This document shows, in pieces, positions 32,590 through 58,262 of a stretch of 64,000 bases of DNA. The notes beneath the pieces are model-generated. The model worked only from the letters and a program-made list of their open reading frames with translations. It was not told the DNA's origin and made no database searches. A program made the position numbers and the translations under genes. The stretch spans positions 38,571,691 to 38,635,690 of the forward strand of contig CM067346.1 in NCBI GenBank assembly GCA_034190875.2, in the 5' to 3' direction. Source of the DNA: Urechis unicinctus. Lineage: Eukaryota > Annelida > Polychaeta > Xenopneusta > Urechidae. Position 1 is the stretch's first letter. Every line of letters begins with the position of its first letter.

Positions 32590-33533
32590 TAATTCGTCAT
32601 TCTGTCTTATGAATAACACAAATATCTATATACTGAGTTTCGACAGCAAATGGATTTTTCCAACAGATGACCTCGTAAATACGTGTTTCGCCCGTCAGAA
32701 CAATACTTTGAATGGCAGATGAACAAATACCTGTCGCCGAAGAGGCAATCATATATTACCTGTGAACCATAAAGAGGCGAAATATGTAGCTGTATGTCAC
32801 TTACGACTTCTGTAAACATCAATAACTTGCTCATTATTATGCCACTGTGCTTCCCATTAACTGCGACCACCTGAGCAGGTACCTACCCAGCAATGGGAAC
32901 AGATACACATTCACACTTAATGATGTGACCATCGGGGATTCCATAACAATAATACATTTCCAGATAAATGGTCAGAACGCCACTTCATTGGTTCGCAATA
33001 GAACCACTTCATAATATGTTACATATGGTTTTTATTGTAGAAAAGCCAACAAATCACACAGCTAGCTTACAAACAAAGCATTGAATGGACCTTTCCAAAC
33101 AATGGCGAGGCAACATATCAAAATATCTTTATACAGGATATCTATCTACTATTAGCGAAGCGGTGCTTCTTGAATGGGAGAAATGTAAACAGATATTTGA
33201 CAAAATACGCTGAAATTTATTAGTAATGAATACGCAGTATCTTTTGAACTAATACAATTATCTTGGTCTTGGTAAATCTCGGGTGCCAATTAAGTCGTTT
33301 GAAGAGCAATATGAGCGCTGCCCTGGTAATAAATCTTTGGCAGACAAACGCGGTTTTGCAAATTACCTACTATAAGCAAGTCGTGACAACACAAAATGTA
33401 TCGGATTGATTTATATTGGATCCTGTAAAACAGTTATTTGCACATTTGTTGTTGAATCTTTATACACTATGCTCTATATAACAGTTGTTTCAAAGTAACA
33501 CCATCATTAATAAACATCGGCTTCTGTCAGACA
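32590..33533. repeat. Diverged copy of the large repeat (left flank and end of unit)
   Basis: 32.64-32.99 kb matches the ends of both younger units (36.86-37.19 kb and 40.52-40.86 kb), sharing TGACCTCGTAAATACGT and CATAAAGAGGCGAAATATGT. 33.0-33.2 kb matches 40.87-41.33 kb (CTTTCCAAACAATGGCGAGG). 33.26-33.53 kb matches 43.68-43.98 kb (GAAGAGCAATATGAGCGC). The order here therefore defines the older, longer unit from which the 3.66-kb tandem pair was cut. No protein is recognised. Confidence 0.85.
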
Positions 33534-33567
33534 GAAAGAGTTCTTGTTATTTGCTTTACCGTCATAT

Positions 33568-33741
<174 letters not shown>

Positions 33742-35091
33742 AAATAAGAGATATGAATATCAACACCCTTTTCGGTCCTAATTCATGTTCCGAGATGCAA
33801 GGGACAGGATGAGACCCATTTTCGAATACCTTTCCCCACCCTCTTCCGTGCCCACCGCGTTTGTGTACACATGATTTCTTTTGCTACAGTTTCTTCAACC
33901 CAACAGATAAATATGAATGCAAAGAACTCGAAATTTTACTAATATAAGCATAAGTCATTACAAGGTATTAGAGTCATATGAACAAAACTGTTTTCGCGGA
34001 CCTTGCAGCGTACTGATTGCAGTGTAAAACCACGTGCAGAATTTGACTCGAATCTTTACTTGTGTTGAGTAGTAATTTTTAGAACTATGCTTTTGGCGTA
34101 AGGAGACTCCCGATAATCTCGGGACTGGAGAATCAGTTATGAGAAAGGGGTATGCTGTAAGGGATAGGAAGTAGCCCTTTGCAGGAGATAATTTCATCCA
34201 CTACGCATTCATGCGTTGGTACAGGAAACCCAATTTTCATGGAAGTTTCGTCTATGCGAACGAATCAAGGGCAAGGTCATATAACGAATGAATCTGAAAC
34301 GGCATGAGTATTGAATGTTTACATTGGCATTGCCACTGAACCAGAGAGGGAAGATTTTCATAAAATCATTTTCATAAAATAGGCAGTACCGGCCCTCGTC
34401 TTATTTGGGTAAAGGTCCTTTAGTCGTTGTCTCTAAAGCTGTCGACTCACACGCATGTTTGATAGATGCATCTAAGAAATGCCGAAAAGGGTGTTTTATA
34501 ACACGGTTTACAGGTAATAAATGGCAATTAAGTGCCGACACCTCGCTAGATACACTGCAAGATTTCAACGAGGCGCCCGCTCGCAATATCTGACTAGATA
34601 GAATATGTGGTAAATTTGCTGTTTTCCCGACGCCGAATCCCTTCATCCATTTGCATGGATAACGTTAAATATGAAGGAATAATTCTGTCAATTCAATTTC
34701 ACAATGGCTGTTGATGTTTGTTTTCACTACGATCGTATGAAAACAGAGCTTTACTCTCATGCGGCACATGATAAGTCTTAAATGCCAACAAGACCGATTA
34801 TTAACCACCCACAAATGGCTCTATATAGTTGCTAATTGTCATCCTCATCATACTAACCCCTCCGTCTTACTGGGCATATAGTTTTACGATACGTCCAAAG
34901 AGCCTAAAGCTACACTAATAGGAATCACTCTAATTGGCTTATGCTGTGAGCATTTGCATCACTCCCACCGTCATGTGGCGCTACCACAAAATCAACAAAA
35001 GCACATGGGACTGTTGCGGTAATCGAGACATCCTATAAACGTCATTGCCAAATTTTTCAAGGCGACCGCCCGTCCAATTTCCCACGTGGCT

Positions 35092-35721
35092 TTAAAGAGA
35101 TTGTTCCGCCCCATATTTGTAACGAGGTTGCCTAGCTAGCTGCTTGGCTACCGCACCTGATTTACAGCTAACATTTGTTTGGTCCCCATGGTTTAAGGGA
35201 GGCATCGTAATCAATAGAACGACATAACCAAATAAAACAGATCTCCACAGTACATCATGAATATTTCCTGTATAAAGCCTCCCTATAAAATCCCCTATTA
35301 CCAACCAAACCAGGTTTGTGACCGAAGAAAACGCAGCCCTTATGTATCCTGCTACTAATCTATGCCATAATTTCTTGCCAACTGGAATCTCGAATCGCCC
35401 AATTGCTCCCGTGCCATGGTAACCCACTGCAGATCCGACACACAGGAAACCAATCACAATAACACTGTCATGTATATGCAAGCCATGATTGTCACGATAC
35501 CAGTAAACCACTTTTATCACATATAAGTAAGAAGAAGCAAAGAAGACATATGAGATATGAAAAGGTATGTCACCGAAAGATAAACGAGAAAAACAGAGTC
35601 GCTTATACGAAGGGTGAATGCCAAATACAAAGATGTAATGAAAGTGTGTGCTAATGTTTACCGATATTCCTATACAGTATGAAGAATGATTGGTTAAAAA
35701 ACATACGTGCGATACACACAC
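35092..35721 (-). other. Long frame in copy A, probably not a gene
   Basis: A 209-codon minus-strand frame with hydrophobic stretches (for example SVIVIGFLCVGSA and VLFGYVVLLI) that could be read as membrane segments. It recurs in copy B (39432-38836) and in part in the old copy (28374-28144). Between copy A and the old copy, over about 45 codons, I count roughly nine amino-acid-changing and two silent differences. That is what neutral drift gives, so selection for a protein is not supported. I do not recognise a family, and the start is arbitrary, next to a microsatellite. Confidence 0.3.
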
Positions 35722-35728
35722 ATGTATT

Positions 35729-35730
<2 letters not shown>

Positions 35731-35819
<89 letters not shown>

Positions 35820-35837
35820 ATATATGTGTGTGTGTTT

Positions 35838-35910
<73 letters not shown>

Positions 35911-35928
35911 CGTGTGTGTGTGTGTGTG
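35731..35928. repeat. (CA)n-(TA)n-(GT)n compound microsatellite in copy A
   Basis: (CA)n 35731-35767, (TA)n 35768-35825 with one CTAT interruption, and (GT)n 35826-35928 with a few TTTG and GCGTGC variants. The CA arm can pair with the GT arm around the TA centre, forming a very long potential hairpin or cruciform. Confidence 0.97.
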
Positions 35929-37223
35929 TATCTGTGTGTATCTTAATGTGAATTGTTCTGATTTTGCCGACCCAACGTAGTAGCCCAGCCGTGATGAGAA
36001 GTATCAAGTCCTGGTAGTTATTTCTGTATTGAAGTGTTACGTCATATCATTATTATTATCATATCATCTTTGGTCAGTCTTGAAGATGTCTGCTGGGTGA
36101 TTTTCAGCCGCATGTAGGCTCGAGTTTCATAAATAAATATTCGGCTATTTGTGAGTCTGATTTCTAAAGTACAAATGGCACCAAATCACTCATCAATCCA
36201 TCTTTAACAACAAACAAAATGCACTTAGCATACCTAAGCATTTATTGAAGATGATGAGCGACGGCAATCACAGATCGCCGCGCAAGTAGGAATCATGATT
36301 TATGATGGCATAGGCATAGGCTCAATTCTTAAACCACCTCGAATATCCATGTTCCTTTTCCATTAGAAGTGGGAGACGAGTGGCCCTTAGTTTGTGGGTA
36401 CCAAGGCATGCTCTCTAGCATCTAACCTCCTCGAACTTATGTTAGATGGAAGTTGGGGGGGGGAGGGGTCAAAGCGATAATGATATATTCTTGTAAAATC
36501 CCGCAGGATCGGAGGAACAAAAACCAAACCATGAGTTAATGGTGACTCAACCAGGCAACCCGTGTTTGTTCTCTTTCGGTCTGCTTTGACAACAACCATC
36601 TGAAAAACATTCACAAACTATCCCTATTATCCTAGAGAGACGTAATCAATATAAATTAGTTGAAGTTCTATTGTTGTGTATACGTTTATAATGAAGACTA
36701 ATGTTGTACGAGGCAGCTGACTTGACCATTTGTTAAATAAAAATAACATGGTACCAAGTATTTCTCTTGTTCTTCGTGCTTTAACTTAATTGGATCCCAT
36801 TCGGCAAATGTGTATTGTTTTATGTTTGACATTGCCCATAAATGAATGAGGTTCGACAGCAAGTGGAAATTTCCAACAAATGACCTCGTAAATACGTAAA
36901 TACGTTTCACCTGTCAGAACAATGTTGGAATGGCGACCACACCTGTGCTGAAGAAGCAATCATATATTACCTGTGAACCATAAAGAGGCGAAATATGTCA
37001 CTTACGACTTTTGTAAACATCAATATCTTGCTCATTATTATGCCACTGTGCTTCCCATTAACTGCGACCACCTGACCAGGTACATACCCAGCAATGGGAA
37101 GAGAGACATCGTGCTTGTTACCCATTCACACTTAATGATGTGACCATCGGAGATTCCATGACAACAATACATTTCCAGATAAATGGTTCAGAAAGAGTTC
37201 TTGTTATTTGCTTTACCGTCATA

Positions 37224-37407
<184 letters not shown>

Positions 37408-39395
37408 AAATAAGAGATATGATATCAACACCCTTTTCGGTCCTAATTCATGTTCCGAGATGCAAGGGACAGGATGAGACCCATTTTCGAATACCTTTCC
37501 CCACCCTCTTCCGTGCCCACCGCGTTTGTGTACACATGATTTCTTTTGCTACAGTTTCTTCAACCCAACAGATAAATATGAATGCAAAGAACTCGAAATT
37601 TTACTAATATAAGCATAAGTCATTACAAGGTATTAGAGTCATATGAACAAAACTGTTTTCGCGGACCTTGCAGCGTACTGATTGCAGTGTAAAACCACGT
37701 GCAGAATTTGACTCGAATCTTTACTTGTGTTGAGTAGTAATTTTTAGAACTATGCTTTTGGCGTAAGGAGACTCCCGATAATCTCGGGACTGGAGAATCA
37801 GTTATGAGAAAGGGGTATGCTGTAAGGGATAGGAAGTAGCCCTTTGCAGGAGATAATTTCATCCACTACGCATTCATGCGTTGGTACAGGAAACCCAATT
37901 TTCATGGAAGTTTCGTCTATGCGAACGAATCAAGGGCAAGGTCATATAACGAATGAATCTGAAACGGCATGAGTATTGAATGTTTACATTGGCATTGCCA
38001 CTGAACCAGAGAGGGAAGATTTTCATAAAATCATTTTCATAAAATAGGCAGTACCGGCCCTCGTCTTATTTGGGTAAAGGTCCTTTAGTCGTTGTCTCTA
38101 AAGCTGTCGACTCACACGCATGTTTGATAGATGCATCTAAGAAATGCCGAAAAGGGTGTTTTATAACACGGTTTACAGGTAATAAATGGCAATTAAGTGC
38201 CGACACCTCGCTAGATACACTGCAAGATTTCAACGAGGCGCCCGCTCGCAATATCTGACTAGATAGAATATGTGGTAAATTTGCTGTTTTCCCGACGCCG
38301 AATCCCTTCATCCATTTGCATGGATAACGTTAAATATGAAGGAATAATTCTGTCAATTCAATTTCACAATGGCTGTTGATGTTTGTTTTCACTACGATCG
38401 TATGAAAACAGAGCTTTACTCTCATGCGGCACATGATAAGTCTTAAATGCCAACAAGACCGATTATTAACCACCCACAAATGGCTCTATATAGTTGCTAA
38501 TTGTCATCCTCATCATACTAACCCCTCCGTCTTACTGGGCATATAGTTTTACGATACGTCCAAAGAGCCTAAAGCTACACTAATAGGAATCACTCTAATT
38601 GGCTTATGCTGTGAGCATTTGCATCATCACTCCCACCGTCATGTGGCGCTACCACAAAATCAACAAAAGCACATGGGACTGTTGCGGTAATCGAGACATC
38701 CTATAAACGTCATTGCCAAATTTTTCAAGGCGACCGCCCGTCCAATTTCCCACGTGGCTTTAAAGAGATTGTTCCGCCCCATATTTGTAACGAGGTTGCC
38801 TAGCTAGCTGCTTGGCTACCGCACCTGATTTACAGCTAACATTTGTTTGGTCCATGGTTTAAGGGAGGCATCGTAATCAATAGAACGACATAACCAAATA
38901 AAACAGATCTCCACAGTACATCATGAATATTTCCTGTATAAAGCCTCCCTATAAAATCCCCTATTACCAACCAAACCAGGTTTGTGACCGAAGAAAACGC
39001 AGCCCTTATGTATCCTGCTACTAATCTATGCCATAATTTCTTGCCAACTGGAATCTCGAATCGCCCAATTGCTCCCGTGCCATGGTAACCCACTGCAGAT
39101 CCGACACACAGGAAACCAATCACAATAACACTGTCATGTATATGCAAGCCATGATTGTCACGATACCAGTAAACCACTTTTATCACATATAAGTAAGAAG
39201 AAGCAAAGAAGACATATGAGATATGAAAAGGTATGTCACCGAAAGATAAACGAGAAAAACAGAGTCGCTTATACGAAGGGTGAATGCCAAATACAAAGAT
39301 GTAATGAAAGTGTGTGCTAATGTTTACCGATATTCCTATACAGTATGAAGAATGATTGGTTAAAAAAACATACGTGCGATACACACACATGTATT

Positions 39396-39592
<197 letters not shown>

Positions 39593-40851
39593 ATCTGTGT
39601 GTATCTTAATGTGAATTGTTCTGATTTTGCCGACCCAACGTAGTAGCCCAGCCGTGATGAGAAGTATCAAGTCCTGGTAGTTATTTCTGTATTGAAGTGT
39701 TACGTCATATCATTATTATTATCATATCATCTTTGGTCAGTCTTGAAGATGTCTGCTGGGTGATTTTCAGCCGCATGTAGGCTCGAGTTTCATAAATAAA
39801 TATTCGGCTATTTGTGAGTCTGATTTCTAAAGTACAAATGGCACCAAATCACTCATCAATCCATCTTTAACAACAAACAAAATGCACTTAGCATACCTAA
39901 GCATTTATTGAAGATGATGAGCGACGGCAATCACAGATCGCCGCGCAAGTAGGAATCATGATTTATGATGGCATAGGCATAGGCTCAATTCTTAAACCAC
40001 CTCGAATATCCATGTTCCTTTTCCATTAGAAGTGGGAGACGAGTGGCCCTTAGTTTGTGGGTACCAAGGCATGCTCTCTAGCATCTAACCTCCTCGAACT
40101 TATGTTAGATGGAAGTTGGGGGGGGGAGGGGTCAAAGCGATAATGATATATTCTTGTAAAATCCCGCAGGATCGGAGGAACAAAAACCAAACCATGAGTT
40201 AATGGTGACTCAACCAGGCAACCCGTGTTTGTTCTCTTTCGGTCTGCTTTGACAACAACCATCTGAAAAACATTCACAAACTATCCCTATTATCCTAGAG
40301 AGACGTAATCAATATAAATTAGTTGAAGTTCTATTGTTGTGTATACGTTTATAATGAAGACTAATGTTGTACGAGGCAGCTGACTTGACCATTTGTTAAA
40401 TAAAAATAACATGGTACCAAGTATTTCTCTTGTTCTTCGTGCTTTAACTTAATTGGATCCCATTCGGCAAATGTGTATTGTTTTATGTTTGACATTGCCC
40501 ATAAATGAATGAGGTTCGACAGCAAGTGGAAATTTCCAACAAATGACCTCGTAAATACGTAAATACGTTTCACCTGTCAGAACAATGTTGGAATGGCGAC
40601 CACACCTGTGCTGAAGAAGCAATCATATATTACCTGTGAACCATAAAGAGGCGAAATATGTCACTTACGACTTTTGTAAACATCAATATCTTGCTCATTA
40701 TTATGCCACTGTGCTTCCCATTAACTGCGACCACCTGACCAGGTACATACCCAGCAATGGGAAGAGAGACATCGTGCTTGTTACCCATTCACACTTAATG
40801 ATGTGACCATCGGAGATTCCATGACAACAATACATTTCCAGATAAATGGTT

Positions 40852-41335
40852 ACAGCGCCACTTCATTGGTTCGCGATAGAACCATTTCATAATATGTCAC
40901 ATATGTTTTTTATTACACAAATCACACAGCTAGCACAGATGGGGATGCGCAACAACGATGTTACATATTGTCTTGATTAGCCTTAAGTATGGTATATGTT
41001 ACAGAACCAATGATTATTAATTTTTTTAGACGTCTGAGGCATCATTCTTTGTTAGCCGTTTGTATAAACATTAGGTGCTTGCAGTTTGGCAGCTTTAACC
41101 AATGATTACCTGCCTCTTTATTGTATGGATCAGCCATATAAAGATATCATCGCATTGCACATGTCTTACATGTATGGCACATGTGTTACAAACAAAGCAT
41201 TGCACCAGGCTCCTTATTAATGTCACATTTGAATGGACCTTTCCAAACAATGGCGAGGCAACATATCAAAATATATTTATACAGAATATTTTTCTAATAT
41301 TAGCAAAGCGGTGCTCCTTGAGTGAGAGAAACGTC
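40852..41335. repeat. Continuation of the older large-repeat unit right of copy B
   Basis: 40.86-40.93 kb matches 32.98-33.06 kb (CACTTCATTGGTTCGC). 41.22-41.33 kb matches 33.08-33.19 kb (CTTTCCAAACAATGGCGAGG, then AGCGGTGCT). About 290 bp between these blocks is absent from the 33-kb copy. No coding signal. Confidence 0.8.
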
Positions 41336-43670: not shown

Positions 43671-45639
<1,969 letters not shown>

Positions 45640-48540: not shown

Positions 48541-49885
48541 TGTATGAGAGTAATCGCACTCTTCATAAACGATGATGCTTTGTCAATCAATGAAAAATAT
48601 TGCCCCTATATTTCTATGCTATATCAATGGCAAATGATGATTGTGTGTATCATAACAAACTCGGACCATTGGGATAGAAATAAGCTACAGAAATCGAACA
48701 AAATATCCTTAGCCTGTCTCTGGAAAGTGTCCTCTATAAGACAACCATTACCAATCCTATTCGTTAGGTAGTACAAATAACTGTCTGGCGACATATATGT
48801 GCAATATTGGAGAATAAGCAAATCGATTGAATGGGCACCGAACAGCAGATATAATATAGGAAATATCATACCTACCTTTGCCAGGTGTGAGTGTTGTAAC
48901 TCTGTTATGTCTGGGAACTAATTCCCATACAAATTAAAAACCTTGTTCCCTACCTAATCAGATGTGCAACCTTTCATTGCCCTCACCAACAACAACGATT
49001 TTACCTTTGATGAAACAACCATATCTCGCTTCCTCAAATCATTCACCGATGGTTTTTGTATGGTGATGTAATGTACAGTGGCTTTTATAAACCGCAGAAG
49101 GGTAAATGGACGGATGTTGGACATCTGAAATTGACAAAGTCGTAAAATAAGAACAGAGTGCCTTGCAGATGACACCGGAAACGAGATTGTTTCCAATTAT
49201 CCACATAAAACATAAAAGTAATGACTCAAGAGGGCCTCAACCAAAACTACTCGGCTGTTTCAAAACAACTGGCACTCCCCTCAGCGCGCACGGTTGGTAC
49301 TTTACATACGTTATACAAACAACCTTAAAGAGCAAGTATAGGTTGAAATATGATTTTTTGGGGATGATATTGTACGCGATTTTCTTATTAATAACTTGCC
49401 GTTCTATTTTCGATTCGACGCGAAGTAAACTAGAAATTGTTTGGACTGTCGGCTTAGGTACCTCTTCTATTTGAGGATAAGTCAACAAGAAATAAGCAAA
49501 AACAAACAAGACATTCCGGAACTTCCCGACCACACGCCGAAGACAAACGAGGGCGTTGTGACGTCATATGTCACCGGACGCCGTTTCTATTTGCGTGCTA
49601 GCTGCCGTTCTAATTATTCGTTATTTACAGACACTCCTCAGCGTTTTTTGATCCATGGTTTCGAGAGAATCTGCACGTATACTCATCCTTACATTTCCCA
49701 TATGACAGTTGAATTCATTAGTTTTGTTTCTGTTCTGATTTTGAAAACAAAATAAAAGTGAAAATTGTCGCAGCGATGGAAAGCTGCCCTTCGAGAGACG
49801 TTTCATCTGTGGTGGGAAAGAGATTTTAAGCTATTATCCTCTCTTGTAGACAATTGATTTAAGTCATTTACATATCCGTAATCTC
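48541..49885. other. No gene recognised
   Basis: Several short frames (up to 104 codons, 49441-49755) but none with a recognisable domain or with splice signals that link them. It could hold diverged upstream exons of the transposase copy at 50.1 kb, but I could not identify any. Confidence 0.45.
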
Positions 49886-49899
49886 CGGTACTGGAACTC

Positions 49900-50085
49900 T
49901 AGCTACCACTTGTCCGCTTTGGTAAGTGGCCAGATTTCGCACTTGCCAGTTGACAAAATTGACATGGCGGTAGTGATCCGTGTGGGGCGGTCCAATTTAA
50001 TAAGGCTGTTCCACAGATCTGACGTATAGACTTGTCCCGTCGGGACATGTAAATGTACGCTTGCCCATTAGTAATGGTATTTATG
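49900..50085. repeat. Cluster of ACTTGTCC / ACTTGCC motifs beside the transposase block
   Basis: Within about 185 bp the words ACCACTTGTCCGC, GCACTTGCCAG, GACTTGTCCCG and CGCTTGCCC occur, plus an inverted GTAAGTGGCC. A similar cluster lies at 19.05-19.11 kb in the LINE insertion. They may be terminal or subterminal repeats of a DNA transposon, where transposases often bind several short sites. GGCA-type cores are also seen in THAP-domain binding sites, but no THAP domain was found here. Confidence 0.5.
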
Positions 50086-50135
50086 CATTTTGACCAATTG
50101 AGGTATTTTGTAAGTAGTGTAAAACTTTTGTAGAG

Positions 50136-50580
50136 ACAGCAAAGCCAGTGAATCACTAGTAGATGTCAAAGACCTCATCAAAATGTCTTCACTATATGAA
50201 ACATCTACCATGGCTTTCCATGGCATAGTAATCAAATTCGCACCAAAACACACTGATTTCATTTGGCTCTGTCAGTATGCAAGGTGTGTTGGTTTGAAAA
50301 GCAATTATGTTCATAAAATTGTTTGTGCACCCTGGCCTGCCTTAATATATTTTGCATTGCACCTGTTCACTTGGTTCTTTGTTTGTGGTATTTGACCATT
50401 TATGTATTTAAAGATGGACATATATGAAACATTTTAACCTGCAAGACTATCAATTAAATTGTGAATTGCTCTACGGGCTATGTTTTCAAGGTATTGTCTG
50501 CCTGCACTACACTTCAACAACAACAGTGGTAGACTACAGGCTGTGGCCAGAAACGGAAGACCCTAGGTCACAGACAAGTG
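50136..50580 (+). pseudogene. DDE transposase-like gene, C-terminal exons, copy 1 (+)
   Basis: Two exons of a transposase family that I know as multicopy uncharacterised proteins in animals (D-x-x-H DDE group, possibly Kolobok). Exon 1 (50136-50283) reads DVKDLIKMSSLYETST, then FHGIVIKFAPKHTDFIW. This matches the family block 'LSP..QTS..E.FH..vi.FAPK', which is also present in copy 2 on the other strand. Exon 2 (50491-50566) reads YCLPALHFNNNSGRLQAVAR, the family 'LAALHFNENS.R.QA' block, then stops at TAG (50564). A GT at 50284 and an AG at 50490 give a 207-bp intron, and the frame joins in phase to make an Arg codon. Upstream exons with the catalytic residues are missing and the last exon ends early, so this is a fragment. 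Confidence 0.78.
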
Positions 50581-50902
50581 AATAAGAACTAGACATTATT
50601 GGTAGCTGTGAGCAGAATTGAAAAAGCATTACTTGTAAAACTTTGTTTATACGCCACCTTATATAATGTGCCAGCGAAGTTCAATCTTGATGATTGCTGT
50701 GCAATGACACAGGAAGGATCAAACAACCGGCCGAAAATATTAAATGACTTTTAACATACCGTTATTTTAGTAATATAACATCTTTTGTACATGATACAGG
50801 AACCTGCGGATATGTCATTATTTTGGAATTGATGATTCCTTCAGTACATGAATATTTGTCATCGGGTATCATCTGAACCAGACCATGTTTTAGTATACTT
50901 AC

Positions 50903-51109
50903 ATTTTTCTTCTTCTACTTCCGACAACAAGCACTGTATACAATTTCTAGGGTCCAGGGACACAGGCACCCAGAGACAAATCCTGGATGTGCTGTTATAC
51001 AGACTACACCTATAGCTTGCACTTTTACATGAACTTCTTGACAGCATTTGCTTTCTGCCACTAAAAGCATTGGACCAGATGAGCCACATGAGCACGTAGT
51101 ACAGTGCAC
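50903..51109 (-). pseudogene. P2X7-ballast-like Cys-rich domain exon, copy 1 (-)
   Basis: Read right to left, the text is CTTCSCGSSGPM, then ESKCCQEV, then VVCITAHPGFVSGCL, then WTLEIVYSACCRK. This pattern (CSCG..M...ES.CC.E, CIT.HPGF...CL..W.L..AY) is the signature of the cytoplasmic C-terminal ballast domain of the P2X7 receptor, in which the cysteines bind zinc. No channel domain is present. The frame hits a TAG at 50917-50915. A strong donor (GTAAGT) follows at 50902, so one small frameshift would let the exon run on to the splice site. The gene lies tail-to-tail with transposase copy 1, about 320 bp away. Similar stand-alone domains are annotated as P2X7-like in many animals. Confidence 0.72.
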
Positions 51110-51797
51110 AATTACAATGAATAACTAGTTTTTCATAACAAATTTAAATTGATATAAAACATGAATCAGGAGACGACTTCAAGCAAGACTTACAGACCCA
51201 AAACAAATTCGAAGGCGGTATTTCGGAAACTGAGAAAAATTATATGACCAGCGATTTTTTCCCGGCAACTTTCCTTCCTACTGATTGGTATCTATTAACA
51301 TGCCGTAATCGGATGAAGATTATGAAGCCTCATTAGGGTGAAATGAGGATTCCGATTCGGAAAATGAATGCAGCAAAGACGCTTTGACTTTCAGGCCAGT
51401 GGAAGTGTGGTTGATAGAAATATGTCATCTCTATTAGTCTAAATGGATTAGCACCGGTAGAAATAACAATTCCGTGTAATGGGGTCTATCTGGCCCACAC
51501 ACCCAAGTCAATAAATTCACCCAGCGCGTTCCCCGAGCGATAGTGACATGTATGATAATATATAGAATTGACTTGGGTGCCTGTGAACTGGCCCCTTTCA
51601 GAATTTAGAAGTCCTGTTAATATATCTCTCATAAGTGTATATTTAAAAGACTACTCTTTTGCTCTCAAATAAAGTCAGAATGCTCAGAAAAATTTGTGAA
51701 TCATGGACAAACATAGCCTGCTGGGTCAGCTTTTGTTATGTGATTGATCTAACTTGGAGTTCAAAATAGCTAAAGCTTGATTTAGACAACCTTTCAG
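51110..51797. other. Spacer between the two divergent P2X7-like genes
   Basis: The two P2X7-like genes point away from each other, so any shared promoter or upstream exons would lie here. A short acidic stretch is readable near 51.31-51.39 kb on the + strand (including DSDSENECSKD), but with stops. The first exons were not identified. Confidence 0.4.
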
Positions 51798-52460
51798 GTG
51801 TAGCTGTCACAACTGCGATCAGATGACCACATTGCGGGAATATGTTTGTTTTCGAAATTGCCCGAAGATTCTGGCAACAATGGAAGAGTGGTCATGTATG
51901 ACTGAGCATCCAAGTTCAACTGCTTGGATCATTATGTCCTGCTTGCATCTAAATTCGAGTACATACAGATCGATGGACCTATAGGGGATGATGTTAACAC
52001 AAATGAGTAAGTTATGTCTTTATTGAAGCACATATAAGACACACAGTCACTTCTGGACGTTCAGTGCTACATGACAACAAACAGCAAAACCAGCAATACA
52101 TTTAAATCTGGAGTACATAGTTGACAAAAAAGAGTTAAAAAAACATTATTTTCATATTTCCCTAAGAAATGATCAATTCTTTTTTGCTGCAGGTTATTCA
52201 GATATTTGGCCTATCGCCGTTTCATCTTCTGGGTGTGGCACAGATTAGGTAGACATAACAGAAAAGTATTGCCATCATGTGTCGTAAACAAAATAAACCT
52301 ATGTTTAGGTATCAGGTATTTGCAATATATACCACACTATAGTCACAGCAAAGCTCAATTAGATTACCTTGCTTCCATAGTGGCAAAGGGAAAGTGTACA
52401 CTCTTGGGTGCGAAGAAGATCACCACCTTGTGGAAAGATTCTAAGCTGGAAGTCTGCTAA
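51798..52460 (+). pseudogene. P2X7-ballast-like Cys-rich domain gene, copy 2 (+), two exons
   Basis: The first exon (51798-52006) follows a CTTTCAG acceptor and reads CSCHNCDQMTTLREYVC, then MEEWSCMTEHPS. After a shift of one base near 51913-51920 it continues CLDHYVLLASKFEYI and IGDDVNTNE. A GTAAGT donor (52007) and a pyrimidine-rich TTGCTGCAG acceptor (52192) give a 186-bp intron. Exon 2 (52193 onward) reads LFRYLAYRRFIFWVWHRLGR, then RKVLPSCVVNKI, the second half of the P2X7 ballast fold (AYR.F..W.W..LG..NR.VLPSCVV..IR). The splice joins in phase, making a Glu codon. The frame stays open to a TAA at 52458, running antisense over the end of transposase copy 2. The frameshift makes it a probable pseudogene unless it is an assembly error. 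Confidence 0.82.
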
Positions 52461-53332
52461 GACGGAGATAATCTGCCAATGTCTTTCAGAAGGTGTTTGC
52501 TGTTCACAATAAGCTCCATTTCCTTGAGTGGCTTTGATCCTTAATAAATGAACATAAAATACAAGATACTGTGTTATATATGGCCATGGGTAAAGATGAG
52601 TGCCCTTACAAACTCTGCCAAAACATTACCCCAGCTTTGTTTGCACACTGCATAAAAAAGCCAATGAATAACCTTCTCATGAATATGATTTGTACTTGCT
52701 TTTAATCAGAAATAAACGTAAACAAGCAATGGTGATTTATATTGGTGTTCGATTGCTTTTGCCCTACTCACCCTTCTTCACCCAGTTCCTATCTTCCAAT
52801 TGCTCATGTTCACATTCTGGGTAATCAGCTCCATGTCGACTGTGTTCATTGACCACATGTCTCGTCACTGACAGCCACTTTGCTCGAACCACAGCCTCGT
52901 CCCCATTGCTTGAAGCTGCGCACCAATATTTGACAGTCTTTCCGTTTTCCTTTGGCAAGCAACTTCTTCTTGACACCTGCCAATATTACTTTAATATTAC
53001 TTATAACTTGTAGTAGCAAGCATACATGTTGTTGCCTGTAATATGTGCACTTGTCAATTACCTATTTGGGTGGTCTTAAAGTATGAATATTCTATTATCT
53101 TTTACATTATATTCACTGCAATGCTACAATCAATAGAAAACTAACCTTTGGCAACATGCCATACATCAAACCAATAATGAATTTCAGGCTGCTCCTCCCT
53201 CAGGTATTTCTTGACACCTAAATGCCTGTCGGTGGTGATGGAACATATATCCAATCCTTTATCCGCCAGAGATGTCATGGCAAGTTTGAGTCCTGCCAAC
53301 TCCATTGCATTCGAGTTTTTCACTTGATTGCT
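52368..53332 (-). pseudogene. DDE transposase-like gene, copy 2 (-), three exons, degenerate
   Basis: Exon A (53332-53146) follows a TTTTCCAG acceptor and reads SNQVKNSNAMELAG, then ICSITTDRHLGVKKYLREE, then IHYWFDVWHVAKG. TDRH and the D-V-W-H motif fit the D(2)H group of DDE transposases. A GTTAGT donor and a GGCAG acceptor remove 169 bp. Exon B (52976-52772) starts VKKKLLAKGKRK, then is frameshifted near 52940 with loss of part of the family text, and continues VKYWCAASSNGDEAVVRAKW and HVVNEHSRHGADYPECEHEQ, up to a GTGAGT donor. Exon C (52539-52368) reads GSKPLKEMELIVNSKHLLKD, a TAG (52459-52457), then QTSSLESFHKVVIFFAPKS, and ends MEAR at GTAATC. All junctions keep phase. The N-terminus and last exon are absent. 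Confidence 0.82.
53146..53332 (-). CDS. Transposase copy 2, exon A with TDRH and D-V-W-H motifs
   Basis: This 187-bp exon is intact: no stop across 62 codons, a proper acceptor on its left and a donor on its right. TTDRH supplies a candidate catalytic Asp and FDVWH supplies the D-x-x-H motif seen in several DDE superfamilies (hAT, Kolobok, P, MULE types). It is the most useful query in this window for identifying the family. Confidence 0.75.
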
Positions 53333-53339
53333 CTGGAAA

Positions 53340-56044
53340 ATTGACATGCCATTAAGTTATCATTTATAGTGTGTCAATGCTTCCAGAGTCATCTGTATAT
53401 GAAGAAGATTAGTACATTTCGCTTCTATGACATAAAATAAAAGCAAAATATGATGGCAGTTATGCACTGAACAAGGTGTAAGTAACAAATATATACCTAA
53501 TTAGGACAAGATAAAGTATGTATTATTGAATTTGGTACCCTAGGTAAGACAAAAAACTAGTGTAAGACCTTGAACTCTTAAGAGGCCCATGACATATGTA
53601 GCCAGAAGTCCCTCTGTACCTCATTGGAGAGGTATATTTAATTGTAACAGGTACTACCTGAAAGGTCTCGGCTCCCAAAACCAGAGCAAACACTTTAATC
53701 AAATTAAAACTACCTGTCCGTAGACGAGGAAAATACACTTCATTGGAATTGTATTTGATTTATTGCAAAAACGAAATATCCATTGAAATCTCCATTGAAT
53801 GCGGTAGCAGTTTTCGTTTGCGGTAACGTTTTATAATCAAACCAAATAAAAGCCACGGAAAAAGATATTTCCATTGCAGGACGCAAATCGTAAATCAGTC
53901 ATTGATTACCATGAAACGGGCTTGGATTCGAGGTACATCGCTGTGTTCCAGCACTGCCTGTATTATCTCTTGGTCCGCTTTGGTTGACGTTTTCACACTA
54001 CATAATAGAAGTATGTCACAATATAATGTATTCTTGGCCAGCAAGTACTCCAAGGCACATGAAATGATATAATTCGTTGCGGTATATGATGTACGTACGG
54101 TGACAAATGACGTCACAAACTCAGGTGCCATTGGCCGTCGTTTTTTTTACCATATGCAAAAACGGTCCAACAAATCTGGGGAAATATTGAAAAAAAAAAT
54201 TATATCAATGGACGAAAATATTTTCGGAAACGTCTTTCACAGGCTGATATACATCTAATAAAACTTGGATTAAGGAGTCGAAAAAAGACGCTACTTGCAC
54301 TTTAATGAAATATGGACCGTCCCATTCGCTATGGCATATAAAGCAACCATACCGCATTCCCGGTAGAAAACGAGGACGCCGCATCGTATTTTGATTATAA
54401 CATTGGCGATACGTAGCATTTGTTGCCCGTTAGCGCAAGAAATAAAACGTGTTGTGCAAGTTATCCTGTAGTTCGGATTCATATAGTGGCACTGGTTTAT
54501 CACAAATCTGAGGAGATCATGCCATCGACTAATAACACGACGTCCCACCCAAACATCATTTTGTATGGCGAGTAATCAGAGAGGGAGTTTATTATCTCTT
54601 TCGTGCTGAGACATACTTAGACAGCATACAAAGCAGACGTATTTTGCCCATCAACTTGGCCAACTGATCATTCACATTGCGCCGCCCCATTCCATTAATC
54701 TTTTGGCTTCTTTGACTTGAAGCGGTCAACAGCCTATCTAACCTCAAGAAATCTGCGGACACAGACTCTTTACATGACAAATCATCAAAAAACTAGCGCC
54801 AAACTAGCGCTGTTCAGCTGCCAATGCATACACTAGCGTGCCCTATCCCCTATCTCATGCCTTGCAGATTGTCTCAATGAATTCGATCCCAAAGTCAAGG
54901 ACAACTTCACGGATCGCTTTCCCTAGGGCATACAAGAAATTGTAACTGATTAATGCGCCTCTTTTCGCAAATCACAACGAAACTGACATATATGCAAGTC
55001 AGGCTTTTCGTAATGTATCATGGGCTGATCCATCGTTTTTCTCTGACATGATAAAACATTATTTTGCAACTATAGCGCCTGGGGCACATATGTGCAATAG
55101 TGATATAAAGTGGTTTTAGCCTTGCACATGGCGTTGTATAGAGAAGAAGGCGATGTCATCGTCAGGATAGTGTAACAAATAATTACAACCTTTTGTCTTG
55201 TATGTGTTTACCGTCTAAGAATGATTAAGGGGCATAGAAACATATCATGAACAATCCGCTAGGAAATGGGTTTATTTGTTGACACAGAAAAAAACCTGGA
55301 TGTACAAATGTTCAATCTACTCCCCTATAGCATATTGATCATCATTTCAAAGATATGCACAGCAATAGGTTTTGATGTAAATTGATAATAATGACTTCTC
55401 CGTAAGATAATTAGGATAGCCTGCATATGTTTCCAAGTAGTCACCACTAATGCAAGTACAATGAGAACAAACACAGAATTCAATGTGTTGTCATCATTAC
55501 CATGTGATTATTCCAGCTTTTGATCTTGTAGGATTTAATGAGAATCGAACAATGTTACTTCGACGTCGGCTGCACGAGTTAAGTCAGATTGGCAATGAAG
55601 AGGGCAAGGTACAGTGTTAGCCACATGCGATATGGTAATATGACAAAAACCTGCAACACAATCATATCGCGCATATCATGAAAATTATACAAATAATTGA
55701 TTATTTGATTAATTATTAATAATTATCAGTTCCTCGTATTTAATGCTAATCCCTGATGTACAGCACGTTTATACGCACGTGCTTGCATAAAACATTGAGT
55801 GATTGGCTGCTCACGATGTTGGTAAATTAATTAGCGGTTGTTGCAGGCAATCCTTATGTTCAAAACAGTTGAGGTTGCAGATAATGCAATCTGCATTTGA
55901 AATGCCAGGCTATGTCAAAGGAGCTGTTACATGCAAAGGATATTAGTCTGTCGACACATGATTGCTACCGAGAAAAAACAATGCCATTCCATTAAGAAGA
56001 GATACGGAAAGTATGTTTTCACATTTCATGGTTTCACAAAGCTA

Positions 56045-56439: not shown

Positions 56440-57020
56440 GTATAATTATATCTATTTCGCAACGCATGTAAGCCTCTATTTGAAGGATGTATCAAATAAA
56501 TACAAAACCAGTCATGAATCATTGTTCATTGTTCACCTTGTCTGACTAAGATGATACCATAGCTTGACGGTTCCAAATCTGCTATCAAGGTGAAGGTAAT
56601 GAAACGTTTCGTGATTAGCGTCATAAACATGCTCCCCATATTTGCGTAATGGAATTCCATTAGTTCATTACAGACGGCAGCTGTCGTGTCCGTATCTATC
56701 TGCAACGGGCCCGTCAACGGGCCTCGGTAGCCAAGCATCCATCCCAAAAACATGCGGCCAATTTTGTTGAACCTGTGAATGAGCACGCCCGTGGGAAATT
56801 CTGTGAAGCTGATCCGGTATTATAGACAATGTTGCGAACAGTTATAGAATGGTGATATATCTTCTGTGACTGTTTGGCGATCTCACGGGCTTCCATGAAT
56901 ACTTTATTTTGATTTTTATATTGTATTTGTGCTGAAAACAAGCCATTACGGGATGATTCCTTTGTAATGATGTTAATGATCAGTATCAAGTTTGTAGTCT
57001 GTGTTAGTGTGCATGCAAAG
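56440..57020. other. No gene recognised
   Basis: Two minus-strand frames of 86 and 103 codons overlap here, without recognised motifs. Confidence 0.45.
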
Positions 57021-57023
57021 CAC

Positions 57024-57262
57024 AACTGCCACTAGCAACATATATCATATTAGGGTATGTGCTACGCACGTCTGCCATCAACAGCATATATCATATCAAG
57101 GTGTATGCTAAGCATATCTGCCATTAACAGCATATATCAAATTAGGGTGCATGCTAAGCACGTCTACCATTAACAACAGATATCATCTGCCATTAGCAAC
57201 ATATCAGGGGTAGTGCTGCGCACGTCTGCCATTATCATATCAGGGTGCATGCTAAAAACATA
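57024..57262. repeat. Imperfect minisatellite, period about 50-55 bp
   Basis: Four to five irregular copies of a unit of the form CTGCCATTAACAGCATATAT, then CAT(A)TCAGGGTG(C)ATGCTAAGCACGT. Several units lack internal parts, for example a shortened one around 57.18-57.21 kb. No coding sense. It probably arose by replication slippage of an AT-rich unit. Confidence 0.88.
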
Positions 57263-57983
57263 TAACAATAAACTCCTGCGAAATAAAAATGCCGCTATAT
57301 CAAAGGCTGTTTCCATGCCATAAAATGCCTTTTCTGTTTAATAAACCTAGTTCACGATAATGGTTACAATTATTATGTCACATATGATAAAATAACGGTA
57401 CTGTTGACTGAATCCATTAGTCGTGATTACGGCTAAGTACTTGGCGCAACATTTAATGTCGACTTGTTCATAAGTGCACTTATGTTATACATAACCACTC
57501 CAAGGAGCAGGTTACGTAAATTTGTGTAACACACCGCAAGCCATTATCTGAATGATTTATGAATGCTAGCAGTTGCATGAAAAGCAATGAAATATTACTC
57601 GGTAATCATACGAAGGTGAAATATGTAGTTGTATATCACTTGTAACTATGACAGGCATCGGTAACAAGCTCATTGGTCAGTCGCTGTAGCCGCCATAATC
57701 TGAGGTCACCTAAATAAGAACCAGCCTAGCAATTTGCAGTGACATCACGCTTGTAGGCCATCAAAAACGTTAAGTTATGGGGACTTCGTGGAATCCGTAT
57801 CAACGGTGCATCTCGCGATGAAACGCTACAGCGTCCAATCATTGGTTTGCCTCTAAGTCCATTTCACAACTGAGTATTGACACCGACATTTCGGATGATA
57901 GTGCATTAAACAGCTGCTGCAAATTGCATCGATGATTCTTATATGGAGTGATATCGATAGACAAGCCATCATTGAAATTATGT
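57263..57983. repeat. Contains a very old relative of the large-repeat end (57.6-57.85 kb)
   Basis: 57.60-57.85 kb keeps the order of words seen at 40.62-40.88 kb: a GAGGCGAAATATGT-like word, a TTGCTCATT-like word, GACCACCT, CCCAGCAATG, GACATCGTGCTTGT and CGCCACTTCATTGGTT. Each is altered by several bases. This shows that the family is old and dispersed. The rest has no recognised feature. Confidence 0.5.
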
Positions 57984-58262
57984 CTACCATTAACCATCAC
58001 CAAGCACCAAAACCAAGCATCATTACCAATAACAATCATCAAGTGCCAGTGCCAATAGCCATCACCCAGCACTATTTTTAAAAGCAATCACAAAGCATCA
58101 CTACCAATGACCACCACCAAGCACCATTACCAATAACCAACTCCAAGCACCAAAACCGAGCAACATTACCAAGCATCATTTCCAATAACCATCAGCATAC
58201 ATTATTACCAATAATCATCACTAAGCACCAAAACCAAGCACCTTAACCAAGCACCATGAACG
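57984..58262. repeat. Irregular CACCAAGCACCA minisatellite
   Basis: About 280 bp built from variants of CCAATAACCATCACCAAGCA and CACCAAAACCAAGCA, with unit spacing of roughly 12-36 bp and higher-order structure. The + strand is almost free of G except within AAGCA. It has several stops in each frame, so it is not a low-complexity protein gene. Confidence 0.9.

Follow-up and report, generated by a model that had tools for sequence, protein, structure and literature searches.

The transposons that most closely resemble the locus described here belong to the Kolobok superfamily, whose members use TTAA target sites and have 5'-RR...YY-3' ends (Kojima and Bao 2022, PMC9587614). According to the passages of that study dealing with the Kol0 group, Kol0 Kolobok elements encode a transposase together with KolX, a protein that was named there, that has the ballast fold and that is similar to the region 476-595 of P2X7. 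In the same passages, P2X7 is derived from a P2X4-like gene that became fused to KolX, and Nanor is regarded as a likely domesticated KolX (Kojima and Bao 2022). KolobokP elements have been described as a further group, in which an accessory gene lies downstream of the transposase gene on the complementary strand, in a tail-to-tail arrangement like the one reported below. Unlike the KolX genes of this locus, however, the accessory gene of KolobokP encodes a His-Me finger nuclease (Kojima and Bao 2022). Moreover, ballast proteins without the P2X part have been reported across animals, and two linked markers were described in this context (Rump et al. 2020, PMC7016195); in the main text of the latter article, the string "transpos" occurs 0 times. 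Other papers on a link between the ballast domain and transposons were not found among the open-licence papers listed in the search.

The DNA that was analysed, hereafter the window, is a 64-kb stretch from Urechis unicinctus, and all positions refer to it. Both the related proteins and the introns that were found suggest DNA of an animal. Its 2861 six-frame pieces of at least 15 aa were searched with a transposase profile built from 50 relative proteins and with a ballast (KolX) profile built from the 120 relatives listed of 332 hits. The query alignment of the ballast search included both copies from the window as rows; the profile consists of database proteins only. Ten of the pieces matched at E<1e-3, six with the transposase and four with the ballast profile, and all of them lie within 50.1-53.4 kb, the rest of the window giving no further match at this threshold. 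From left to right, the region carries the C-terminus of a transposase on the forward strand, a P2X7-ballast protein on the reverse strand, a second ballast protein on the forward strand and a longer transposase on the reverse strand (Table 1). The best pieces of the four genes reached E-values of 4.5e-29 (right transposase), 1.2e-19 (right ballast protein), 2.5e-11 (left ballast protein) and 2.3e-6 (left transposase). The arrangement of four remnants is real, and chance is an unlikely source of any of them. Gene order and strands had been proposed in the initial annotation and agree with the placement by homology and splice fit, as does the tail-to-tail layout of both pairs, in which the 3' ends of the transposase and ballast genes face each other. 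None of the four genes is intact, each being truncated or disrupted, and a complete element with clear ends was not found in the window. We consider it very probable that the region represents the remains of two different Kol0-type Kolobok DNA transposon families.

Table 1. Remnants of transposase and KolX genes, candidate element ends and inverted repeat arms in the window
Feature	Position	Strand	Evidence or remark
Candidate left element end	49325..49338	+	TTAA then AGAGCAAGTA
Subterminal inverted repeat, left arm	49556..49580	+	25 nt, 23/25 complementary
Left transposase, last-but-one recognisable exon	50136..50283	+	Profile 380-421 of 532; SLE(S/A)FH block without E
Left transposase, next exon	50491..50563	+	Reaches profile position 443; GT-AG intron joins it to exon 50136..50283
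Left KolX / P2X7-ballast remnant	50936..51094	-	Profile 90-149 of 251, E 2.5e-11; tblastn with P0081 1.5e-9
Probable right KolX exon 1	51300..51409	+	Acidic N-terminus, two stops, ends FRPVEVW
Right KolX exon 2	51798..52006	+	CSCHNC..., one frameshift near 51910; profile, splice fit
Right KolX exon 3	52193..52297	+	LFRYLAYRRFIFWVWHRLGRHNRKVLPSCVVNKI; 80% identity to P0052 over 35 aa
Right transposase, SLESFH exon	52368..52539	-	In-frame stop ahead of SLESFH; profile, splice fit
Right transposase exon with YWCAASS	52772..52976	-	Frameshift and small deletion relative to relatives; profile, splice fit
Right transposase exon A	53146..53332	-	TDRH and DVWH; profile E 4.5e-29, splice fit
Subterminal inverted repeat, right arm	54094..54118	-	Partner of 49556..49580
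Candidate right element end	54292..54305	-	Reverse strand: TTAA then AGTGCAAGTA

The right transposase is represented by three recognisable exons with GT donors and AG acceptors, which together span positions 214-420 of the 532-position profile. Neither the C-terminus nor the N-terminal part, in which the first conserved D is expected, was found in the profile search of the window, and no exon was found beyond the last donor of this gene. The blocks TDRH, DVWH and SLESFH follow one another in this order and are largely invariant in 20 relatives, among which D292, D313, H316 and E434 are invariant. If the catalytic residues are assigned by the signature that Kojima and Bao (2022) give for these elements, the right copy would retain the second D and the E of the DDD/E triad, and the missing N-terminal part would have held the first D (D225 in the relatives). 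The blocks fit this signature, and the right copy has the C/DxxH motif, which in Kolobok transposases is located after the second catalytic D and ahead of the last E. The initial annotation was exact in placing exon A at 53332-53146, and the stop that it had read as SPS-stop-QTSSL is present, within LSPS-stop-QTSSLESFH. The left transposase is truncated as well, no exon being found upstream of 50136, and its intron has the donor at the codon that also carries the last donor of the right transposase. Since it reads TSTM-AFH at the site where the relatives have SSLE(A/S)FH or SSVEAFH, the E of the triad is absent.

Pfam scans of ten transposase relatives matched the Mutator-like transposase in six of them, one above the cut-off; three had no hit, and P0040 gave a THAP match below the cut-off. 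The fold predicted for the relative P0001 (mean pLDDT 77) matched the ISCth4 transposase in all four PDB matches at E<=0.001, the best one at 3.2e-5. Within the window, none of the transposase pieces passed a Pfam cut-off, MULE at 0.1 being the best match of a single open reading frame, and both joined transposases were without a Pfam hit at E<=10. Searches of a collection of viral contigs and of a collection of genome contigs gave 26 and 24 pattern matches to the transposase, respectively, of which 0 were confirmed. Likewise, megablast of 49300-54330 against plasmids gave no match.

The right KolX gene can be followed over two exons and a probable third one upstream. Exons 2 and 3 are separated by an intron of the form GTAAGT...CTGCAG, and joining them gives the product NTNELFRYLAYRRF. 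The candidate for exon 1 aligned with P0077 at a score of 56, the best among the N-termini of 87 relatives; this score was reached by 0 of 200 shuffles (maximum 54), with the start of the exon picked by eye. With this exon included, FRPVEVW would precede CSCHNC, just as the Pinctada relative P0077 has LRPVEEW ahead of CSCGHC. The probable first intron also contains a perfect hairpin with 13-nt arms CACCCAAGTCAAT that are 54 nt apart (window 51500-51579). The initial annotation had extended the gene to 52.46 kb, an end that has to be withdrawn: the open frame merely continues there, while the homology stops near 52297, and the apparent overlap with the right transposase is therefore not real. 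Eight cysteines are invariant across 31 KolX relatives. The joined right KolX keeps seven of these eight cysteines in an ungapped comparison, or all eight when VCFRNC is aligned by MAFFT, and the left KolX keeps six of the seven that it covers. The remnants thus follow the conserved zinc-ligand cysteine pattern of the P2X7 ballast domain. In the viral contig collection, 19 pattern matches to KolX were obtained and 0 were confirmed.

Several results connect KolX to the C-terminal ballast domain of P2X7, which is homologous in sequence and alike in predicted fold and cysteine pattern; in P2X7 the domain is fused to an ion channel, whereas here it forms a small stand-alone protein. The joined right KolX passes the Pfam threshold for P2RX7_C (PF20478) with 31 bits (cut-off 23.5, E 3e-7), and the left KolX had no Pfam hit at E<=10. 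When six single open reading frames were scanned at E<=1, only P2RX7_C (0.0025, below the cut-off), MULE (0.1) and CheR (0.1) appeared; joining the exons and building profiles thus outperformed the scans of single frames. A profile of 31 KolX relatives detected P2X7, with matches to four distinct chain sequences around residues 470-594 and a best E-value of 1.4e-16, and P2X7 was absent when the joined right KolX alone was compared with the PDB by phmmer (best E 0.97). The ballast fold was predicted from the oyster relative P0051 (mean pLDDT 79); all 13 PDB matches of this model at E<=0.001 are P2X7 chains, though over the query their TM-scores reach only 0.46-0.51. KolX, for which this relative predicts the ballast fold and by which Kol0 elements are recognised, is therefore encoded at this locus. 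A 33-row KolX tree failed to place the P2X7 tail, whose end branch of 5.88 raised a long-branch warning, and the direction of the capture therefore rests on the study of Kojima and Bao (2022). In the same tree, a protein from the fish Kryptolebias, two coral proteins and one more were grouped (100/96; P0131, P0138, P0160 and P0168). This grouping contradicts the species tree and fits either mobile elements or old paralogues.

It had been suggested in the initial annotation that a transposon family carries the ballast protein as a second, convergent gene. This view is supported by the two divergent pairs and by the relative P0102, which its source labels "Kolobok-2 xt". Like the Kol0 elements of the Kolobok-1_XT type, the locus combines a DDE transposase that has a DxxH motif with a KolX that has the P2X7 ballast fold. 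It differs from them in that the copies are broken and that two divergent families stand head to head; a candidate TTAA end pair is described below. Alternatively, KolX could be taken for a gene of the host, with transposons landing next to it by chance, and Rump et al. (2020), in the part of their article concerned with the two linked invertebrate markers, take these as ancestral synteny. However, the pairing recurs in the same orientation in two different families, and Kol0 elements have been reported to encode KolX (Kojima and Bao 2022), so that a host gene with chance neighbours is barely credible. The further proposal of the initial annotation, that stand-alone ballast genes in animals may often be transposon passengers and that such a source could have given rise to the vertebrate P2X7 tail, is essentially right but had been published before, with ballast proteins across animals read as genes of transposons (Kojima and Bao 2022).

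Under the preferred reading of two Kol0-type families, each element would have had a DDE transposase gene with introns and a KolX gene in tail-to-tail orientation to it, the latter coding for a protein with the P2X7 ballast fold. With an intact transposase, the element would have been excised and pasted into TTAA sites, and we infer such mobility and TTAA targeting for the present copies. KolX most likely served as an accessory transposition protein, which would bind zinc and possibly a nucleotide or nucleic acid.

The two pairs differ strongly, as had been noticed in the initial annotation. The transposase blocks of the two copies share 43% identity over 30 aa, and the KolX copies share 31% identity. 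In a quick KolX tree of 48 rows, 46 of them relatives taken from the 120, a branch with an SH-aLRT support of 96 separates the two KolX copies, the left row filling 32% of the columns. The left transposase could not be placed in a tree of relatives found by search (support 37). A recent inverted duplication of one locus is rejected by these identities and by the separation of the KolX copies in the tree, in agreement with the earlier view that the copies are too divergent for such an event. An old inverted duplication of a single element, followed by long decay, would explain that the gene order is a mirror image. Yet fewer than half of the protein sites are identical and the KolX copies are split by the well-supported branch. 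Moreover, blastn between the two halves at E<=1 found, besides the arms of the 25-nt repeat, one match of 32 nt, which runs in the same direction in both halves rather than being inverted. Such an old duplication is very unlikely.

Candidate ends were found outside the four genes. The TTAA sites at 49325 and 54305 are followed by sequences in which 9 of 10 bases agree and which show the RR...YY form (AG...CT) reported for Kolobok. This pair ranks second by score among 377 TTAA pairs in the region, after the pair 50408/51646 with a score of 9 over 27 columns. In the whole window, five of 12221 TTAA pairs score at least 8, including 49325/54305, and the pair alone is thus not significant. An inverted repeat of 25 nt lies inside these ends and is the only arm pair not formed by dinucleotide arrays among 60 of the 94 pairs listed at a spacing of 1-7 kb; the remaining entries begin at 56.1 kb or beyond. 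Dinucleotide arrays are abundant in the window. Furthermore, an alignment of the terminal 316 bases with the terminal 296 bases scores 125.6, a value that two of 300 pairs drawn at random from the window also reached. It is plausible that 49325 and 54305 are the ends of one element, as candidate ends for either gene pair or for both. Inner ends between the two gene pairs were searched, and no convincing pair was obtained. Long direct repeats such as those described at the termini of KolobokP, which are about 450 or 660 bp long (Kojima and Bao 2022), were not found in 49.0-54.6 kb, where the longest reported repeat has 30 nt at 70%.

These ends raise the possibility that the TTAA-flanked segment 49325-54305 is one composite element, which encloses both convergent pairs and moved as a unit. 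The 25-nt repeat at 49556/54118, the agreement of the outer ends and the alignment of the terminal bases speak for it, and the gap between the left KolX and the probable right exon 1 is about 200 bp, which leaves little room for inner ends. However, two divergent families in one element require nesting or fusion, a second copy was not seen, and both halves are heavily deleted. We regard a composite that moved as a unit as unlikely, and its more specific form, a single TTAA-ended Kolobok composite in which two Kol0 families became nested first and then moved as one, as quite improbable. For two separate Kol0-type families, the position of the two broken copies head to head inside the candidate ends would most simply be explained by the insertion of one copy beside or into the other.

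The locus holds decayed copies of a known kind, with two families placed head to head within candidate shared ends. Nevertheless, a connection known from the literature, that of the P2X7 tail with an accessory protein of transposons, was recovered from raw sequence, and the pairing of transposase and KolX was shown in two divergent families at one locus. Animal genes that consist only of the ballast domain and are annotated as "P2X purinoceptor 7-like" should be checked for an adjoining Kolobok transposase before they are read as purinergic receptors.

Other parts of the window also contain repetitive sequences. The segment 16001-20000 has a strong GC skew (-0.34 and -0.39), and by eye its open reading frames resemble those of non-LTR retrotransposons; the three that were tried had no Pfam match at E<=0.01. 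A tandem duplication with a unit of 3.66 kb, 99.2% identical over 3676 columns, occupies 33532-40855 and 43673-45639 and includes a partial third copy at 93-95%. Finally, satellite-like arrays with periods of 46/92 bp and 13/26/78 bp are located at 57004-58257.
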